Source: Cellulomonas taurus (GTDB lineage: Bacteria; Actinomycetota; Actinomycetes; Actinomycetales; Cellulomonadaceae). Taken from it: a stretch of 64,000 nt of DNA. The DNA lies in the NCBI RefSeq assembly GCF_012931845.1, contig NZ_CP051884.1, forward strand, positions 248,001-312,000, read 5' to 3'. Below, one piece after another: positions 15,557 to 23,388 of the stretch; positions within the stretch are counted from its first letter, which is position 1; each line of letters begins with the position of its first letter. The notes under the pieces are model-generated. The model saw only the letters and a program-made list of their open reading frames with translations, was not told where the DNA came from and ran no database searches. Both the position numbers and the translations under genes were made by a program.

Positions 15557-16240
15557 GTGAGTGCTGGACCGCAGCAACAGGTGACGAGGGTCAGCATCGT
15601 CGAGGACGAGACCCTGATGCGGGCGATGCTGGAGCAGACGTTCCAGCGGACACCCGGCGTGCGGGTCGTGCACTCGCTGCCGGGTGCCACCGAGGCACTG
15701 CTCGCCATCACCCCGGGCAGCTCCGACGTCGCCCTGCTGGACATCAACCTGGCCGACGGCAACGGGATCGCCCTCGGGCTCCAGCTGGAGCGCGCCAACC
15801 CCGACCTGCGGATCGTGCTGCTGTCCAGCCACGACATGATGGGCGTCTTCACCACCGTGCAGGACGAGGTGCGGCACGCCTGGAGCTACCTGTCCAAGCG
15901 ATCGGCCTTCGCTCGGGACGTGCTGGTGCAGGCGGTCGTCGCCGCGGCGCAGGGCCGGGTGGTGCTGGATCCCCAGTTGGTGCGGGAATCGGTGCCGCGC
16001 GCCGGGACGGATGTCGCCGACCTGACGCCCGCGCAGTTGCAGGTGCTGCGGCTGGTCGCGGAGGGACTGTCCAACCAGGCGGTCGCCGAGCGGCTGAAGA
16101 TCTCGCCGCGTTCGGTGGAGAGTCATCTGCTGGCGATCTACCGCCGGCTGGAGATCGAGGGCGGCGACGCGAATCGGCGCGTGGCGGCCGTGCTGCGCTT
16201 CTTGCGGGAGACCGGCCGCGCATGGGCGCCGGACGCGTAA
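15557..16240 (+). CDS. LuxR/NarL-family response regulator
   Basis: A 227-aa response regulator: receiver domain with the acidic pair ED at 16-17 and phospho-acceptor Asp62 (ALLDINLADG), then a LuxR-type helix-turn-helix (about 155-215, LTPAQLQVLRLVAEGLSNQ). GTG 15557 has GGAGG nine bases upstream. The gene overlaps the histidine kinase gene by 19 bp, an unusual regulator-first order. The SipW-type export cluster follows immediately, making it the most plausible target. Confidence 0.9.
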   Translation: MSAGPQQQVTRVSIVEDETLMRAMLEQTFQRTPGVRVVHSLPGATEALLAITPGSSDVALLDINLADGNGIALGLQLERANPDLRIVLLSSHDMMGVFTTVQDEVRHAWSYLSKRSAFARDVLVQAVVAAAQGRVVLDPQLVRESVPRAGTDVADLTPAQLQVLRLVAEGLSNQAVAERLKISPRSVESHLLAIYRRLEIEGGDANRRVAAVLRFLRETGRAWAPDA

Positions 16241-17328
16241 CACCGCCGGCCCCGCGGGACGCCCTCGTCGCGGCCGGGTGGGTCGGCGTGATCAACGCCG
16301 CCCTGTGGGCCATCCTGTCGGTGGTGGTCCGGATCTCCTGGGACGTCGAAGGCGTCAACACCGTCGGTCGGGAGCTGCTGGTCGGCCTGATCATCTTCAC
16401 CATGGGAGTTCTGCTCGTGGTGGTGTGCCTGCAGACCCGGCTGCCGCTGCGCCGGCGGCACGAGCAGTTGGTGGGCGCGATCATCCTCTCGGCGGTGTTG
16501 GGGCTGGGGCGGACGGCGATCGACCAGAAGGTGATCCCGTTCGCTGAGGACACCGGCTCCTTCCTCATCTGGTGGGCGGTGGCCGTGGTCGGCAACCTGG
16601 TCGTCGCCAGCCCGGCGATCCTGGTCAGCAACCTGGTGGCCCGGCGGCTCCGGGCGGAACAGGCGCGGATCACCGATCGGGAGCGCAACCGGGCTGCCAC
16701 GGCCGCCCTGGAGGCCGAGGAAGCGGCGATGCGTCGCCAGGTGGCCGAACATCTGCACGGGACGGTGCAGAACCGACTGGTGCTGGTCGGCGCGGGACTG
16801 GACCAACTCGCGGTGGAATCCGACGACGAGGGGCGACCCGACCGCGCCGACGCGCTGCGCGGCTGGGCGCGGATGATCGACACCGTCCGCGAGCGTGACG
16901 TCCGGGCGATCAGCCACCAGGTCTTCCCCACCGGCCTCGACATCGGACTGGTCCAGGCACTGGGCCTGGTCATGGACCGTCTGCCGCCGTCCGTGGCCAC
17001 CTCCATGCACTCCGGCGAGGGCCTCCGGGAGGCGGATCAGCGCATCCCGATCGCCGACCGGCTCCTGGTCGCCGCCACCGTGGAGGAGGGGCTGACCAAC
17101 GCGCTCAAGCACGGCCACGCCACCCGGGTGGCCCTCGACCTGGAGGTCGACGACCACACGCTGAGCGTCACGCTGGACGACAACGGCACCGGGCTGCCCG
17201 CCGGTGAGGTGCGGGAGTCGGGTCTGCTGCGACACCGGGCGCGGCTGGAACCGCGGGGCGGCGGCATCGAGCTGCTGCCGGGGGCGGCCGGCGGCACCCG
17301 GTTGCGGATGTGGTTGCCGATCAACTGA
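16222..17328 (+). CDS. Membrane histidine kinase, NarL-partner type
   Basis: A 368-aa sensor kinase with four predicted N-terminal membrane helices (within residues 15-150) and no large extracellular domain, so it probably senses a membrane cue. A short coiled coil leads to the dimerisation segment AEHLHGTVQNRL, with His179 as likely phosphorylation site; a Gly replaces the usual Asp after it. The ATPase domain shows EEGLTNALKHGHA (N-box) and DDNGTGLP (G-box). The start at 16222 lies inside the regulator gene, GGGAG upstream. Pairs with the preceding regulator. Confidence 0.85.
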   Translation: MGAGRVTPPAPRDALVAAGWVGVINAALWAILSVVVRISWDVEGVNTVGRELLVGLIIFTMGVLLVVVCLQTRLPLRRRHEQLVGAIILSAVLGLGRTAIDQKVIPFAEDTGSFLIWWAVAVVGNLVVASPAILVSNLVARRLRAEQARITDRERNRAATAALEAEEAAMRRQVAEHLHGTVQNRLVLVGAGLDQLAVESDDEGRPDRADALRGWARMIDTVRERDVRAISHQVFPTGLDIGLVQALGLVMDRLPPSVATSMHSGEGLREADQRIPIADRLLVAATVEEGLTNALKHGHATRVALDLEVDDHTLSVTLDDNGTGLPAGEVRESGLLRHRARLEPRGGGIELLPGAAGGTRLRMWLPIN

Positions 17329-17346: not shown

Positions 17347-17880
17347 GTGGTCGGTTCTCGGAGTTTTCTCGCAGACGTGCGGTCGCGCCGCGAGTGCGTG
17401 CGGTGCCCTGGGGTCATCAGGAAGCGCGCACGGCGCTTCACGACCTCCAACGACGGAACCACCTTCACCGACAACCCGACCTCCCCGGGGCTGGCGCTGG
17501 ACTTCGACGCGACGAACGCCCACCTGTCGCCCGGTGCCACCGCCTACGCCGCCTACGCGGTGCAGCTCTCCGAGGACTCGGACTACGCGGCCGATGTGGC
17601 GCTGTCCGGCTCCACCGGGACCGGCGAAGCGGCCGAGGACCTGACCTACACCATCCTGAAGACCGAGAGCTTCGGTTGCACGGCCGCGACCACCGGGACC
17701 GCTCTGGTCACCGACCAGCCGGCCACCGCCACCTCGGGCGCCACGATGTTCAGCCTGGACGCCGTCAGCACTCCGGCGTTCCTGTGCGTGCAAGTCACCG
17801 CGGGCGAGGGGCTGACCCAGGGTTCCACCGGCACCATCGAGTGGGACCTCACCGGGACGTCCACCGACCAGTTGAGCTGA
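17347..17880 (+). pseudogene. SipW-type exported protein gene lacking its signal peptide
   Basis: The frame encodes a TasA/SipW-substrate-like body (FTTSNDGTTFTDNP onward, about 145 residues, two Cys, beta-rich). A functional homologue would begin with a short basic n-region, a hydrophobic helix and a small-residue cleavage site before FTTSND. Here IRKRARR is joined directly to FTTSNDG, with no hydrophobic stretch, and the codon where a start would be expected (17419-17421) is GTC rather than GTG. The only available starts (GTG 17347, 17377, 17398) add a non-family, charged N-terminus. I read this as a gene that has lost its start and export signal. A cytoplasmic product from an upstream GTG cannot be excluded. 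Confidence 0.65.
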
Positions 17881-17884
17881 CACC

Positions 17885-18514
17885 GTGCGGCGCGGCCCCG
17901 TCCTGATCGTCGCCCTCGCCCTCCTGCTGGGGGCGGCGGCGACGGTCGGGATCGATCACACGCTCGCCGCGTGGCGGGCCGACGAGCGGTCGGGTGCCGA
18001 GTTCGCCGCCGGGGTCTTCCAGAGCCAGTCCCAGACCACCGCCGCCACCGAGTGGCAGACGCACCCGGACGGCGCCGCCGCCGAGCTGGCGGTGACCGAC
18101 CTGACCGGCCTGGCACCGGGCGGTACCCACGACGCCCCCACCGCGGGGGAGTCGCACTACGTCTGGCTCAACATCCGCACCGCACCCGGTTCGCACTGGG
18201 GTGGCCGACTGCATCTGATCGGGAACAGCGGCACCGGTGATCTGGCCCCGGCGCTGGAGTACCGCTTCGCACCACGGGCGGCCAGCACCGCCGACTGCAC
18301 CGCCGCCGACCTGGCAGCGGCCCCCGCCGACTGGCAGCCGATCACCGACTCGCTCGCCGCCGACACCGGTCTGACCGTGTCGCCGGACGCCGCCGACGCG
18401 GTGGGCCTGTGCTTCGAGGTCCGCGTCGCCGCGTCCGCCTCCGGCCCGGCCGGGTCCGCCTACCAAGGAGCCTCGGCCGACCTGCGCTGGGACTTCACGC
18501 TCGTCCAGGACTGA
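17885..18514 (+). CDS. SipW-dependent-type exported protein
   Basis: A 209-aa secreted protein with an alternate (SipW-type) signal. A basic start MRRGP leads to a hydrophobic helix (about 5-23), then the typical TLAAWRADERSGAEFAAG, resembling the post-signal motif of TasA/CotN-like substrates. The body is beta-rich with two late Cys (in ADCTAAD and GLCFEV). Substrates of this type are processed by the membrane peptidase encoded next door and may form surface fibres. GTG 17885 lies four bases after the broken gene and has only a weak ribosome site. Confidence 0.75.
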   Translation: MRRGPVLIVALALLLGAAATVGIDHTLAAWRADERSGAEFAAGVFQSQSQTTAATEWQTHPDGAAAELAVTDLTGLAPGGTHDAPTAGESHYVWLNIRTAPGSHWGGRLHLIGNSGTGDLAPALEYRFAPRAASTADCTAADLAAAPADWQPITDSLAADTGLTVSPDAADAVGLCFEVRVAASASGPAGSAYQGASADLRWDFTLVQD

Positions 18515-18529: not shown

Positions 18530-19933
18530 ATGTCCGCGCTGCGTCGCACCGTCACCGACCTGCTGCTCACGGTCGCCGCCGTGCTCGGCGTCTGCTGTGC
18601 CCTGCTGGCAGTGGCCGGAACCGTCGCGGGCTTCGGTGTCGTGCTGTTCCGCACCGGGTCCATGTCGCCGACCATCCCCGCCGGTTCGGCCGCGCTGGTC
18701 CGCACCGCCCCCGCCGCCGAGCTGCGGATCGGTGACGTGGTGACGGTGGATCGCCCCGGCCGGATGCCGATCACGCACCGGATCGTCAGCATCGCGCCGC
18801 TGTCCGGTGACGACGACGCCCGCGAGATCGTGATGCGGGGCGACGCCAACGATGCGAACGACCCGCTGCCGTACCAGATCGAGTCGGCCCGTCGGGTGAT
18901 CGGGTCGGTGCCGGACGTCGCGCCGCTCATCACCGGCTGGGGGCGCCCCCAGGTGCTCGGCACGGTCGCCCTGTTGACGGCAGCCGGTGTCACGCTGGCG
19001 TTCTGGCCGCGCCGACCCGGCCCCGCGACGCCCGGTGGCGCGCCGGACGGGGACTCCGGGGACGACGACGTGGCCCCCGAGGCGCGCGACATCGACCCGG
19101 ACCTGACCACGACCGGCCCGAAGGCGACCACCGCGCACCGCCGTCGCCGTCGCTCTCCGGCCGTGCGCGCCACCGCCGGGACCGCCCTCCTGCTCTGCGC
19201 ACTGGGCGTGGTCGGCGCGACCGCCCCGACCAGCGCGCACGCGGCCGTCGACGACGACCGTCATCTCAGCGTCGATTCCTGGGCCAGCGCCACCGGCCCG
19301 ATGGTCCCCGGTGAGGTGCGGGACTGGGTGCTCACCGTGCGGACGGACGGTGTCCGGGGCCGGGTGACCCGTGACCTGGAAGTGACCGGCACCGGCAATC
19401 CGGCGCTGACCGTGCAGGTGGATCGCTGTGCGGACCCCGACTGCACCCGGACCACGCCGCTGGTGTCGGCCCACACCCCGGCGCCGGGTGGCGTGCTCGA
19501 CCTGCCGGATCAGACGGCGCCGGGCACCGAGGTCCTGCGGGTCCGCGCGACGCTGGACCCGCAGGCTGGGCGCGAAGTACAAGGGCTGCGGACCGGCATG
19601 ACATTCGTCGCGACCGGTGACGGGGAGATCGTCGAGGCACCCGCCGACGACGCCGACACCCCGCCGGACGACCCGAGCGCCACCCCCGACGGCCCCAGCG
19701 GAACCCCGGACGCGCCCGGTGTGACGCCCGAGGGGCCTGCCGACAGGCCGACCGGTGGGCCGGGCACCGATGACGGCGCCACTCCGGGGTCCGGGCACCG
19801 GCATCCGGCACTTGCCGTGACTGCACCGCTGGGCGGCCCGCTGACCGCCCTGGTCGCGGTGCTGCTCGGCGCGCTCGGCTGGGCGGTGCTCGGCCTGCGC
19901 CGCAGGGAGCGGGAGGCAGGGCCGGACCGGTGA
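18530..19933 (+). CDS. SipW-type signal peptidase fused to a substrate-like surface domain
   Basis: A 467-aa fusion. Residues 1-165 form a type I signal peptidase of the S26B/SipW branch: membrane helix 10-35, catalytic Ser44 in GSMSPTIP, and His83 in ITHRIV replacing the Lys of bacterial SPase I, then a second helix near 150. A charged linker (165-215) leads to a second signal-like segment (about 217-240, TALLLCALGVVGA, ending TSAHA). It is followed by a beta-sandwich region (241-390, HLSVDSWASATGPMVPGE), a Pro/Thr-rich stretch and a C-terminal membrane helix with RRRERE. The second half resembles the peptidase's own substrates. ATG 18530 follows GAGGAG by six bases. Confidence 0.8.
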   Translation: MSALRRTVTDLLLTVAAVLGVCCALLAVAGTVAGFGVVLFRTGSMSPTIPAGSAALVRTAPAAELRIGDVVTVDRPGRMPITHRIVSIAPLSGDDDAREIVMRGDANDANDPLPYQIESARRVIGSVPDVAPLITGWGRPQVLGTVALLTAAGVTLAFWPRRPGPATPGGAPDGDSGDDDVAPEARDIDPDLTTTGPKATTAHRRRRRSPAVRATAGTALLLCALGVVGATAPTSAHAAVDDDRHLSVDSWASATGPMVPGEVRDWVLTVRTDGVRGRVTRDLEVTGTGNPALTVQVDRCADPDCTRTTPLVSAHTPAPGGVLDLPDQTAPGTEVLRVRATLDPQAGREVQGLRTGMTFVATGDGEIVEAPADDADTPPDDPSATPDGPSGTPDAPGVTPEGPADRPTGGPGTDDGATPGSGHRHPALAVTAPLGGPLTALVAVLLGALGWAVLGLRRREREAGPDR

Positions 19934-20451
19934 GCCGGGCCGGGAAGGTCGCGATCGGCATGGTGTCGGTCGCTGCACTGCTGGCGGCGCTGATCGGGAT
20001 CACCTGGTCCGATGCCGGGTTCCTCGCCCACGAGTCGGCGCGGCTGGGGGCCACCGCCGGAGTCGTGCCCCCGGCGGTGACCACCTGCACCCCCGGGGTC
20101 GGCAGCCCGCACCTCGTCACGCTGGCACCGACTGCCGGGGGCCTTCCGGCCACCGGATACCGGGTGACCCAGGAGCTTGACGCCGACTTGCCCACGGACT
20201 GGATCTGGGTGGACGGGGAGATCAAAGGGGCGCAGCTGACCCCGTTGGGTGATTCTCGCTGGCCGGCGGATCAGTCGACGGTGGGCTTCGGGATCGACTT
20301 GCCCTTCCTGGCAGGGGGATCGGCGTCCGGGACCACCACGATCCGGGCGGTCGGCCCGGGTGGATGGGAGTCCGCGGCGATCACCTACGCCTGGTCGATC
20401 TCGGCGAGCTGGGGGATCGTCTCCTCCACCTGCGAGCCGTTGGGCGGCTGA
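19930..20451 (+). CDS. Small secreted protein of the SipW cluster
   Basis: A 173-aa protein with an N-terminal hydrophobic helix (about 7-26) followed by WSDAGFLAHESARLGATAG, a SipW-substrate-like junction. The rest is beta-rich with two Cys (TTCTPG and SSTCEPLGG), probably one extracellular domain. GTG 19930 overlaps the preceding stop (GTGA), so it is translated with the peptidase fusion. A long near-perfect palindrome ends the operon. Function is not known; processing by the adjacent peptidase is inferred. Confidence 0.75.
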   Translation: MSRAGKVAIGMVSVAALLAALIGITWSDAGFLAHESARLGATAGVVPPAVTTCTPGVGSPHLVTLAPTAGGLPATGYRVTQELDADLPTDWIWVDGEIKGAQLTPLGDSRWPADQSTVGFGIDLPFLAGGSASGTTTIRAVGPGGWESAAITYAWSISASWGIVSSTCEPLGG

Positions 20452-20502: not shown

Positions 20503-23058
20503 TCAGGAGTCGCTGAACGACCAGTTCCGCAGCCCGTCACGGTTGCGCACACCGAGCTTGCGCAGCACCGAGGCCATGTGGTTCTCCACGGTGCGGATCG
20601 ACAGCATCAGGCGACGCGCGATCTCGCGGTTGGTCAGGCCGCGGCGGGCCAGCACGGCGACCTCCCGCTCGCGGGCACTGAGCCGTTGCAGCTGGTCGTC
20701 GTGGTGGATGCTCGCCATCGACTCGATCTCCTGCAGGGCCAACGACGGCCGGTCGACGCCGTCCCGACGCAGCAGCTGCACGGCCGCGGTGACCAGCCCG
20801 GGCGAGATGACCGGGCTCACCCGGGGCAGGATCTCGGCCATCCCCACGGTTTGCCGGGCGGTGATCGCCCGCGCCAGGGTCAGGTAGTCGTCCAGCATCG
20901 GGACCGTGCTCCGCCGGGCGGCGTCCTCGATCCTGCGGACGGTCTCGGGCGAGGGGTGGTTGTCCTGGGCGAGCCAGAACAGCAGCGCGGAGCCGTACTC
21001 ACCCGCCGCCGCGGCGATGGTGCCCGCCTGTTCCAGACGACGCGAGGCGGCCAGTTCCTCCCCGGTCGCGCGATCCAGTGACGCCTGGGCGATCGCCTGC
21101 AGCGGGGAGACCGCCGCCATCGCCGTCACCCGGCTGGTCAGCTCGCGGGCGAGGGGCGTCACCAGGTCCTGGGCGCAGTCAGCGGCCTGAATCGCGGCGC
21201 CGATGCTCAGGCCGCGCCGGTAGAAGGAGTTGCCCGCCGGCCCCGGAGTGCCGAGGGCGAGCGAGGTGTTCAGCACCCGCCACGCCTCCTGCGGGCGTCC
21301 GGCGAAGGTGAGCACCTCGGTCAGCACGGCCGCGTGCACCCGGATGCCGCCGATCTCCCGCGCCTGGTAGGCGTTCTCCAGCAGGTGTCGTGACCAGTGT
21401 TCGGCCTCCACCACCTGCCCCATCATCAGCAGAGCCAGTGCCCGGATCCCCTCGGCGTAGTGCTCGATGGTGCGCGGGTGGTCGGTGCCGGGCAGGTCGA
21501 CATGTGCCAGCGCCAGGTCGGGTCGACCGGCATCCAGCAGAGCGCCCGCGACCACCACCGCGGACCAGCCGTCCAACCAGGGCGAGCCGGTCGGCTCCGG
21601 GGACGGCCAGGTGCTGGTCTCGGGGGTGACTCCGGTGAGCACCGCCGACCGCAGACCGGTCACGCCCTGGCCCACCTCGCGCACCCGGGGGTGGTCGGCG
21701 AGCGGCAGCGCCGCCCGCTCCTCCGGGGAGATCTCCGCCCACGCCACCCACTGGGCGCGCTGGAGGCAGAACCGGAGCAGGTCCGGCTCGGGTTCGTCGC
21801 CGGTGAGCGGCGTGCGGGTGAACACCTCCTCCAGCAGCGCCCGCGCCGGGCGGAGCATCAGGACCTGGAGGTAGGCGTTGGCGTTCTGCACCGTGGGCTG
21901 GAGCTGCCAGGTGCGCTGCAGGGTGGCCTCCACCGCCGCCGCATCGGCGAGGGCGAGGTCGGCGAGCTCCGCCGCCCACCGGTGGTAGTCCTGTTCCGCC
22001 CGGTGCCCGGCCCCGCTGAGCAGCGTGCTGACCTGGCGACCGAACAGGTAGGGCAGCGGCACGTCATCGCCGCAGCGGGCGACCACGAAGCGGGCGAAGC
22101 TGTGGGCAGTGGCGTCGTCGATCCGGTCCCGGAGGGCGGTGGCCAACGCCGGCGGCGCCACGGTGATCAGGGCGTCCTCGCCTCGGGCGCCCGGGAGCTC
22201 CACCAGCCGGCCGGCGGTCCGCAGCCGGATCAGGTCGATGCGATCCACCAGGGCCGTCGCCGTCTCCTCGGTGACCGGACCGAGCCACGACAGCAGTTCC
22301 AGCGCACGGACGTCGGCCTCCGGCAGCCCGCCGACCAGGGCGTTCGCCACCGTGTCGCCGGGCACGTCGTCGAACTGGCCGACCTTGCGCCAGACGCCGT
22401 GGTCGCGGTCGATCACCCGGGCGTGCCGGGCGGCGCTGGCCAGGGCGAGCGCGACCCGGGGGTTACCGCCGGAACGGGACAGGATGGCGGAGGCCAACGG
22501 CACGTCCACCGGCCCGCCCAGTGCTTCCACGATCAGGCGGTACATCCCCTGGAAACCGAAGTTGACCAGCCGCTCCACGGCGGGTGCCCGTTCGGTCACC
22601 AGGCGGATCATCGCCTGCGGCAGGTCCTGGATCCGCGCGGTCCGCGCCGTGGCGACCAGGGAGATCGTCGATCCGCGCAGCACCCGGGCGATCACGGCGG
22701 CGGAGACCGGGTCCAGGTCGTCGATGTCGTCGACCAGGAGCACGGCATGGCGGCCGGTCAGCTCGGAGATCAGCCACGAGGTGGCCTCGCCCACGGTGTG
22801 GCTGGTGGTGGTCTGCACGAACGACTGCTGGGTCAGGAAGGCCGACAGGGGGCTGTCACCTCCCGCCCGGATCAGGACGGTGGGTGAGCGCTGCTGCGTG
22901 CTGCGGGTGAGCAACTCGGAGAGCACCAGGCTGCGGCCGGAGCCGACATCGCCGGTGATGAGGACATCGCGACCGAGGGAGAGCCAGCGGCGCACCGCGA
23001 TGAGCGCGTCCTCATTACCCTCCAGCAGGGGTGAGATCTCGGAACGAGGGGTGGACAT
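20503..23058 (-). CDS. Large LuxR-family ATPase regulator (LAL-like)
   Basis: An 851-aa regulator with an N-terminal AAA/NTPase module, a long helical (TPR-like) middle and a C-terminal LuxR helix-turn-helix (about 785-845, LSAREREVAVLARRGLTNREIARRL split over the domain). The Walker A loop reads GDVGSGRS (36-43): the invariant Lys is Arg, so ATP hydrolysis may be impaired. Walker B is VLLVDDIDD near 105. The start at 23058 has GAAGGAAG five bases upstream; an in-frame ATG 90 bases earlier lacks a ribosome site. It converges on the SipW cluster and could control it or surface-protein genes; the direct repeats upstream at 23227-23254 may be its own site. Confidence 0.85.
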   Translation of the reverse strand: MSTPRSEISPLLEGNEDALIAVRRWLSLGRDVLITGDVGSGRSLVLSELLTRSTQQRSPTVLIRAGGDSPLSAFLTQQSFVQTTTSHTVGEATSWLISELTGRHAVLLVDDIDDLDPVSAAVIARVLRGSTISLVATARTARIQDLPQAMIRLVTERAPAVERLVNFGFQGMYRLIVEALGGPVDVPLASAILSRSGGNPRVALALASAARHARVIDRDHGVWRKVGQFDDVPGDTVANALVGGLPEADVRALELLSWLGPVTEETATALVDRIDLIRLRTAGRLVELPGARGEDALITVAPPALATALRDRIDDATAHSFARFVVARCGDDVPLPYLFGRQVSTLLSGAGHRAEQDYHRWAAELADLALADAAAVEATLQRTWQLQPTVQNANAYLQVLMLRPARALLEEVFTRTPLTGDEPEPDLLRFCLQRAQWVAWAEISPEERAALPLADHPRVREVGQGVTGLRSAVLTGVTPETSTWPSPEPTGSPWLDGWSAVVVAGALLDAGRPDLALAHVDLPGTDHPRTIEHYAEGIRALALLMMGQVVEAEHWSRHLLENAYQAREIGGIRVHAAVLTEVLTFAGRPQEAWRVLNTSLALGTPGPAGNSFYRRGLSIGAAIQAADCAQDLVTPLARELTSRVTAMAAVSPLQAIAQASLDRATGEELAASRRLEQAGTIAAAAGEYGSALLFWLAQDNHPSPETVRRIEDAARRSTVPMLDDYLTLARAITARQTVGMAEILPRVSPVISPGLVTAAVQLLRRDGVDRPSLALQEIESMASIHHDDQLQRLSAREREVAVLARRGLTNREIARRLMLSIRTVENHMASVLRKLGVRNRDGLRNWSFSDS

Positions 23059-23388
23059 CGAGGCTTCCTTCGGCTGTGCCGCGGTGGCGGCTGTCACAGG
23101 GGCGTGGACGGGGGACCGCCCGGGCCGAGCGTCAGGACTGTGCAGCACTCACGTAGGTACCTGCCCGGCAGGCGGTGCACCCACTGGCGCGCCCCGCACC
23201 CACATGCCGCTCCATGGCGATCTGGCTAGGTGGATCCGAGTCGGAATTAGGTGGAGAACGCCGGTGCGGCTGAGGGTGAAGGCGGGTAGGGGTGTACCGC
23301 AGCCACCAGTGCACTCGGTGCCCGCGCTGAGGGGAGGACCACCTACGAGGAACCACGGGCCGCCCCGCGTGGTGGCGCCCGGTCGGGC
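23059..23388. other. 330-bp non-coding region upstream of the LuxR regulator
   Basis: No gene is visible. The region is less GC-rich than its surroundings and holds two TAGGTGG copies exactly 21 bp apart (23227-23254), one opposite copy CCACCTA at 23339-23345, and a weak inverted repeat (23352-23357 with 23368-23373) after the aminotransferase stop. It must contain the regulator's promoter. Confidence 0.7.
23227..23254 (-). promoter_or_regulatory. Direct repeat CCACCTA, 21-bp spacing
   Basis: On the minus strand CCACCTA occurs at 23254-23248 and 23233-23227, two helical turns apart, upstream of the LuxR ATPase gene. The same heptamer is doubled (45-bp spacing) upstream of a LAxTG surface-protein gene at 37915-37966. 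Confidence 0.4.

Follow-up and report, generated by a model that had tools for sequence, protein, structure and literature searches.

What arrangement of functions does a bacterium gain by encoding a signal peptidase and a relative of its substrates in one chain? The question is raised by a reading frame of Cellulomonas taurus at positions 18,530..19,933 (+ strand) of the window, by which we mean the whole 64,000-nucleotide stretch analyzed (contig NZ_CP051884.1). The frame runs from an ATG start without interruption over 467 codons and encodes a SipW-type signal peptidase followed by a TasA/camelysin-like, anchored surface protein (467 aa in all). The first-pass annotation, made from the sequence, had already read it as a peptidase fused to a substrate-like, membrane-anchored domain and suggested that the enzyme may cleave its own C-terminal half free. 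In the parts of the literature that our search covered, TasA-like fibres have so far been studied in Bacillota and archaea, and we found there no description of this fusion, of any TasA/SipW system in actinobacteria whose anchor is of the sortase type, or of how actinobacteria tie TasA-like fibres to their walls. The reading that we favour, at somewhat better than even confidence, is that the gene joins the dedicated peptidase SipW to the anchor of a TasA-like fibre, a partner with a TapA-like role, and that the two are probably cut apart.

Organization of the fused gene

The peptidase half comprises residues 1-160 (18,530..19,009; all features lie on the + strand unless stated otherwise). By its score against NCBIfam TIGR02228 (58.6 bits; cut-off 51.85), its invariant residues and its predicted structure, this half belongs to the SipW/ER-type signal peptidase I family; its match to NF046067, the Bacillus SipW equivalog, is weak and below cut-off (28.1 bits; cut-off 190). 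TIGR02228 also matches all 30 fused members described below (E up to 0.1). Ser44 (codon 18,659-18,661) and His83 (codon 18,776-18,778), the two residues singled out in the first-pass annotation, are unchanged in an alignment of the 30 fused homologues, as are Asp105 and Asp111, and we take the four to be the Ser/His/Asp active-site residues of signal peptidase.

A disordered linker (residues 161-203) and the run RRRRR (204-208; together 19,010..19,153) follow, both predicted to be placed on the cytoplasmic side. The pLDDT of the linker is low. Its G+C content at third codon positions is 0.93, so the linker looks coding. The second signal-peptide-like segment (residues 209-238; 19,154..19,243) contains a helix at 211-226 and AHA at 236-238, in agreement with the earlier description of such a segment. 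It leads into a beta-sandwich domain (244-371; 19,259..19,642) in which Trp266 and the pair Cys300/Cys305 are kept in homologues, a Pro/Thr/Asp/Gly-rich stalk (19,649..19,810), the sequence LAVTA (19,811..19,825), which differs by one residue from the LAXTG sorting motif of relatives, and a C-terminal membrane helix (436-462; 19,835..19,915) with an R-rich tail.

The full-length model (mean pLDDT 73.8) consists of a helix at 2-33, the peptidase core at 35-127, a second transmembrane helix at 140-157, the low-confidence linker, the short helix at 211-226, a low-confidence stretch that includes AHA 236-238, the beta domain, a low-confidence stalk at 374-435 and the terminal helix. The beta domain and C-terminal anchor that had been claimed from the letters thus have counterparts in the AlphaFold2 model, namely the sandwich at 244-371 and the helix at 436-462 with its R-rich tail. 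Structure prediction had been proposed for residues 241-390; there is a folded domain near that range, with true limits of 244-371, and residues 374-435 are of low confidence or disordered.

Relationship of the beta domain to SipW substrates

Modelled alone with AlphaFold2 from 61 aligned sequences, the beta domain has nine strands and a mean pLDDT of 91.9. Profile-profile comparison with hhalign aligned it to camelysin-type SipW substrates (97.7%, E 1.8e-12), a set that was itself found through the beta profile and is thus not independent; the independent matches are weaker, at 62% (E 7.6e-5) for the family to which the gene upstream in the window belongs and 51% (E 1.5e-4) for the family of the other upstream gene. 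In shuffled and reversed controls the value did not exceed 0.4%. One member of the camelysin-type set scores above the PF12389 (TasA/camelysin) cut-off and carries a TIGR04088 signal. A direct Pfam search of the fused protein gave no match to PF12389, and the link therefore runs via profile-profile comparison only. On these comparisons the beta domain is distantly homologous to TasA/camelysin-type SipW substrates, which gives the term "substrate-like" in the first-pass annotation a concrete meaning.

Fold comparison placed the TasA fibre subunit (8aur) at rank 12 (Z 8.0, rmsd 3.8, 126 of 134 residues) in a list where scores of 7-8 are common; TasA is among the best hits and not clearly above common beta-sandwiches, and the fold likeness is consistent with the homology without being decisive. 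A sequence search against PDB chains returned no convincing match, just two esterases at chance level.

Fused and split forms in related genomes

To place the fusion among relatives we used 92 non-redundant SipW loci, each scoring at least 60 bits, fetched for matching SipW or the beta domain and hence a biased sample. The fused arrangement was seen in 30 of them, 22 have an anchor gene just downstream of sipW, 14 have an upstream match and 26 (many of them short loci) have no beta match. Four of the upstream matches (L133, L135, L136, L140) proved to be substrates of the SipW type; with these excluded, the set holds 30 fused and 32 split loci. L117 fell below the SipW score limit and was left out of the count, and the tails of two of the 32 split anchors (L141, L081) look cut short. 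In one group of loci (L132, L146, L148, L118, L121, L123-L126, L142) a beta protein with a sortase-type anchor lies upstream rather than downstream of sipW. At L042 (855-2125, a Salinibacterium MAG) the SipW frame continues in another frame across the anchor's leader; a frame break within a fused gene is the probable cause, and the locus was counted as split.

The beta domain thus occurs in SipW fusions as well as in genes of its own, and its Trp and two Cys are invariant in the 23 sequences aligned. Its absence from many SipW genes, together with its occurrence alone, led us to reject the idea that it is an ordinary part of the peptidase family. We likewise rejected a frameshift or other artefact. 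That an annotation or sequencing error merged two genes is almost inconceivable here: such errors do happen, as the broken-looking frame of the metagenome locus L042 illustrates, but 30 non-redundant fused genes from several families share this order of parts, and a second fusion (L091, G000:C1:3364500-3375500) is present in the same one-contig genome. This second copy has a TIGR04088 protein upstream (29.3 bits) and a sorting-like motif, LGVTG.

In 18 of the 22 downstream-split loci the anchor's start codon lies between -40 and +20 bases from the sipW stop, 13 of these start codons share a 4-base ATGA/GTGA overlap with that stop, and overlaps across split loci are often 4-14 bases. The window's closest relative by beta domain, L120 (33%), is itself split, and its surroundings hold relatives of both upstream genes and of the downstream gene of the window. 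When the fused label was mapped on a tree of 73 SipW domains, 12 changes were needed, at least six of them forced by well-supported branches; loci below 100 bits were left out of this tree, its root is unsure and the window's SipW forms a long branch. Arthrobacter sp. AZCC_0090, whose gene is fused, and A. alkaliphilus, whose genes are split, form a sister pair with support of 100/96, and in their aligned DNA the downstream start codon persists inside the fused gene. Related bacteria have thus gained or lost the fusion several times.

The first-pass annotation had left open how common the fusion is. In an even sample of the class (197 genomes), in-frame fusions occurred in three, C. taurus included, and split pairs in two, so that the fusion is uncommon at this level. 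Within the order, a survey that scored only 13 candidates per genome found that the beta profile matched (E up to 1e-5) in 62 of 297 genomes, some of the weak matches being substrates.

A sortase-type anchor at the C-terminus

The motif L[PA]xTG was found near the C-terminus of 25 of the 30 fused proteins (0.47 in shuffled tails) and 28 of the 32 split ones (0.74 in shuffled tails), and several of the fused proteins have hits to the LPXTG and LAXTG/LAVTG families of NCBIfam. At the family level, then, these sequences place the C-terminal half among sortase-type surface proteins; with a gene of its own near sipW in 32 loci and a sortase motif in most homologues, it fits the substrate-like, membrane-anchored protein first proposed. 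The window's own copy has LAVTA, which does not match L[PA]xTG, along with the membrane helix and basic tail. Because this motif is degenerate, covalent wall attachment of the window's copy is doubtful, and its anchor half may simply stay in the membrane. One match to the sortase family PF04203 scores above cut-off in the C. taurus genome.

The sorting motif bears on whether the two halves separate at all. Under one alternative they are permanently joined: the second hydrophobic segment stays a membrane helix, and SipW keeps an extracellular domain that acts on fibre subunits as a receptor or chaperone. We regard this as a real but minority possibility. It would account for the window's degenerate motif, for AxA being no more frequent than chance in the fused set and for the poor cleavage sites of a Brevibacterium-type branch. 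Against it, 25 of the 30 fused genes retain the sorting motif, so that in most fused species the anchor would have to leave the peptidase; otherwise wall linkage would tie the peptidase to the wall too. The predicted helix at 211-226 is also short for a membrane span.

Processing at the second signal segment

If the halves are cut apart, AHA238 is the candidate site. The AxA motif was present in 22 of 30 fused proteins, against 18.6 expected by shuffling these alanine-rich sequences, and we therefore do not accept it as proof of cleavage. The site is poorly kept in the Brevibacterium-type branch, so some fusions, such as those of that branch, may stay uncut.

As to which enzyme would cut, TIGR04088, the model of the SipW-dependent signal, scores above cut-off in all five SipW substrates of relatives that were scanned (L039, L044, L097, L119, L133). 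It has no match in the window protein, is absent from the matches listed for the 30 fused proteins (E up to 0.1; 19 families found) and has no match in L040, the one split anchor scanned. The leaders of split anchors are of the ordinary Sec type. Given ordinary leaders on split anchors and no recognized SipW-dependent signal, the sequences favour a general (housekeeping) signal peptidase, and cleavage by it at the second segment is at least as likely as self-cleavage.

The self-processing polyprotein of the first-pass annotation, in which SipW cuts its own chain after AHA238 and frees its own surface partner, is unlikely on our estimate. Enzyme and site share one chain and both should face the outer side of the membrane, the modelled surroundings of the site are a short helix and flexible chain, and fused and split states interchange, all of which would suit it; the ordinary character of the site and leaders and the missing TIGR04088 matches speak against it. 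Of the original proposal, the reading of the C-terminal half as a surface protein in its own right stands; self-cleavage by the fused SipW is possible and not favoured. An extended version, in which the polyprotein cuts itself and the freed TasA-like domain stays by SipW, serves newly matured subunits as acceptor or donor of the first strand and is afterwards attached to the wall by sortase, strikes us as quite improbable. Were it true, maturation, nucleation and anchoring would be coupled one to one.

A separate anchor could also arise by internal translation start before the second signal peptide, giving two proteins from one gene. L039 does keep an ATG where its split sister L047 starts, yet an ATG or GTG with a 4-base Shine-Dalgarno-like match was found in only 5 of 30 fused genes vs 22 of 32 split ones, and the window gene has a GTG only, without such a match. 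We consider this route very unlikely; with internal starts kept in so few fused genes, the anchor is probably produced in most of them solely as part of the fusion.

Genomic context

Two TasA-like genes lie immediately upstream of the fused gene, as TasA-like genes do upstream of SipW in relatives. The nearer one (17,885..18,514) is a probable second substrate with a weak SipW-dependent-type signal (TIGR04088, 13.7 and 16.1 bits; cut-off 19), and its homologues sit upstream of SipW in relatives. The other (17,347..17,880) belongs to the family of the first substrate, whose members in L039, L044 and L097 score above the TIGR04088 cut-off; the window's copy lacks the signal peptide that relatives have, and its start codon is uncertain. 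None of the other frames holds the missing signal peptide, and a search for DNA relatives that might reveal a recent loss returned short matches only; its absence has the look of an in-frame loss or of an error. Since the presumed major substrate has no signal peptide here, the fibre system of this strain may be damaged.

Downstream, a small exported-looking protein (19,930..20,451) overlaps the stop of the fused gene by 4 bases (GTGA), and its homologue adjoins the split anchor in L120 (36% identity, E 3e-12). Possible regulators upstream are a response regulator (15,557..16,240; Response_reg, GerE) and a histidine kinase (16,237..17,328; HATPase_c, 27.8 vs a cut-off of 26.4). Convergent with the operon lies a gene for a large ATPase/LuxR-type regulator (20,503-23,148, - strand; AAA_22, GerE), for which regulation of the operon is possible.

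Proposed mechanism and comparison with known systems

In our favoured reading, sipW has merged with a neighbouring gene, which encodes a fibre partner anchored in the membrane or at the wall, within a TasA/camelysin-type fibre operon of actinobacteria. SipW would mature the TasA-like subunits encoded just upstream, and the C-terminal half, a distant relative of those subunits with a sortase-type anchor in place of a SipW-type signal, would hold or seed the fibre at the surface. The chain would probably enter the membrane in one piece, as a protein of four helices. Cleavage after AHA238 by a signal peptidase, most likely the general enzyme, would separate enzyme from anchor, and in most relatives sortase could then link the freed anchor to the wall.

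One of the closest parallels is tapA-sipW-tasA of Bacillus subtilis. SipW there matures TasA and TapA, and TapA gives the first strand to TasA fibres and is a proposed fibre anchor (PMC10151520, PMC9674648). A dedicated SipW likewise stands beside a TasA subunit and a minor partner with a beta domain, by which the fibre is started or anchored, and tapA and sipW overlap too (PMC10151520, PMC9674648). Unlike the present case, the B. subtilis genes are three separate ones, with TapA a SipW substrate encoded before sipW; here the partner is encoded after sipW and joined to it, its leader is of the ordinary kind and its anchor of the sortase type. The likeness to TapA is one of role.

In Bacillus cereus the wall-associated partner CapP governs assembly of SipW-processed TasA/CalY filaments, whereas it is held to the wall by its own C-terminal domain in a system that the authors call sortase-independent (PMC13082335). 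The sipW-bsaABCRSD locus of Clostridium perfringens combines SipW, a fibre protein and accessory secreted proteins under a two-component system, but as separate genes, and its authors found no LPXTG in BsaA and no requirement for a nearby sortase (PMC7395162). A two-component pair lies upstream in the window too. The C-terminal half otherwise follows the LAXTG/LPXTG proteins of Actinobacteria that class E sortase anchors, which share its order of leader, domain, stalk, L[PA]xTG, membrane helix and R-rich tail; it differs in being fused behind a signal peptidase and, in the window, in its motif LAVTA.

That SipW has repeatedly been joined to a sortase-type relative of its own substrates is evidence from nature for a shared task of the two, and suggests that fibre-making and fibre-anchoring are built as one unit. 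The fusion also allows one to test concretely how maturation and fibre anchoring are coupled in SipW systems. If the chain is cut, it would represent a polyprotein, natural to bacteria, in which a protease and a surface protein are combined. Separately, two Pseudobutyrivibrio genes (L051, 5971-7215; L053, 5917-7134) encode a signal peptidase S26 fused to a sortase domain, with both domains above the Pfam cut-off.
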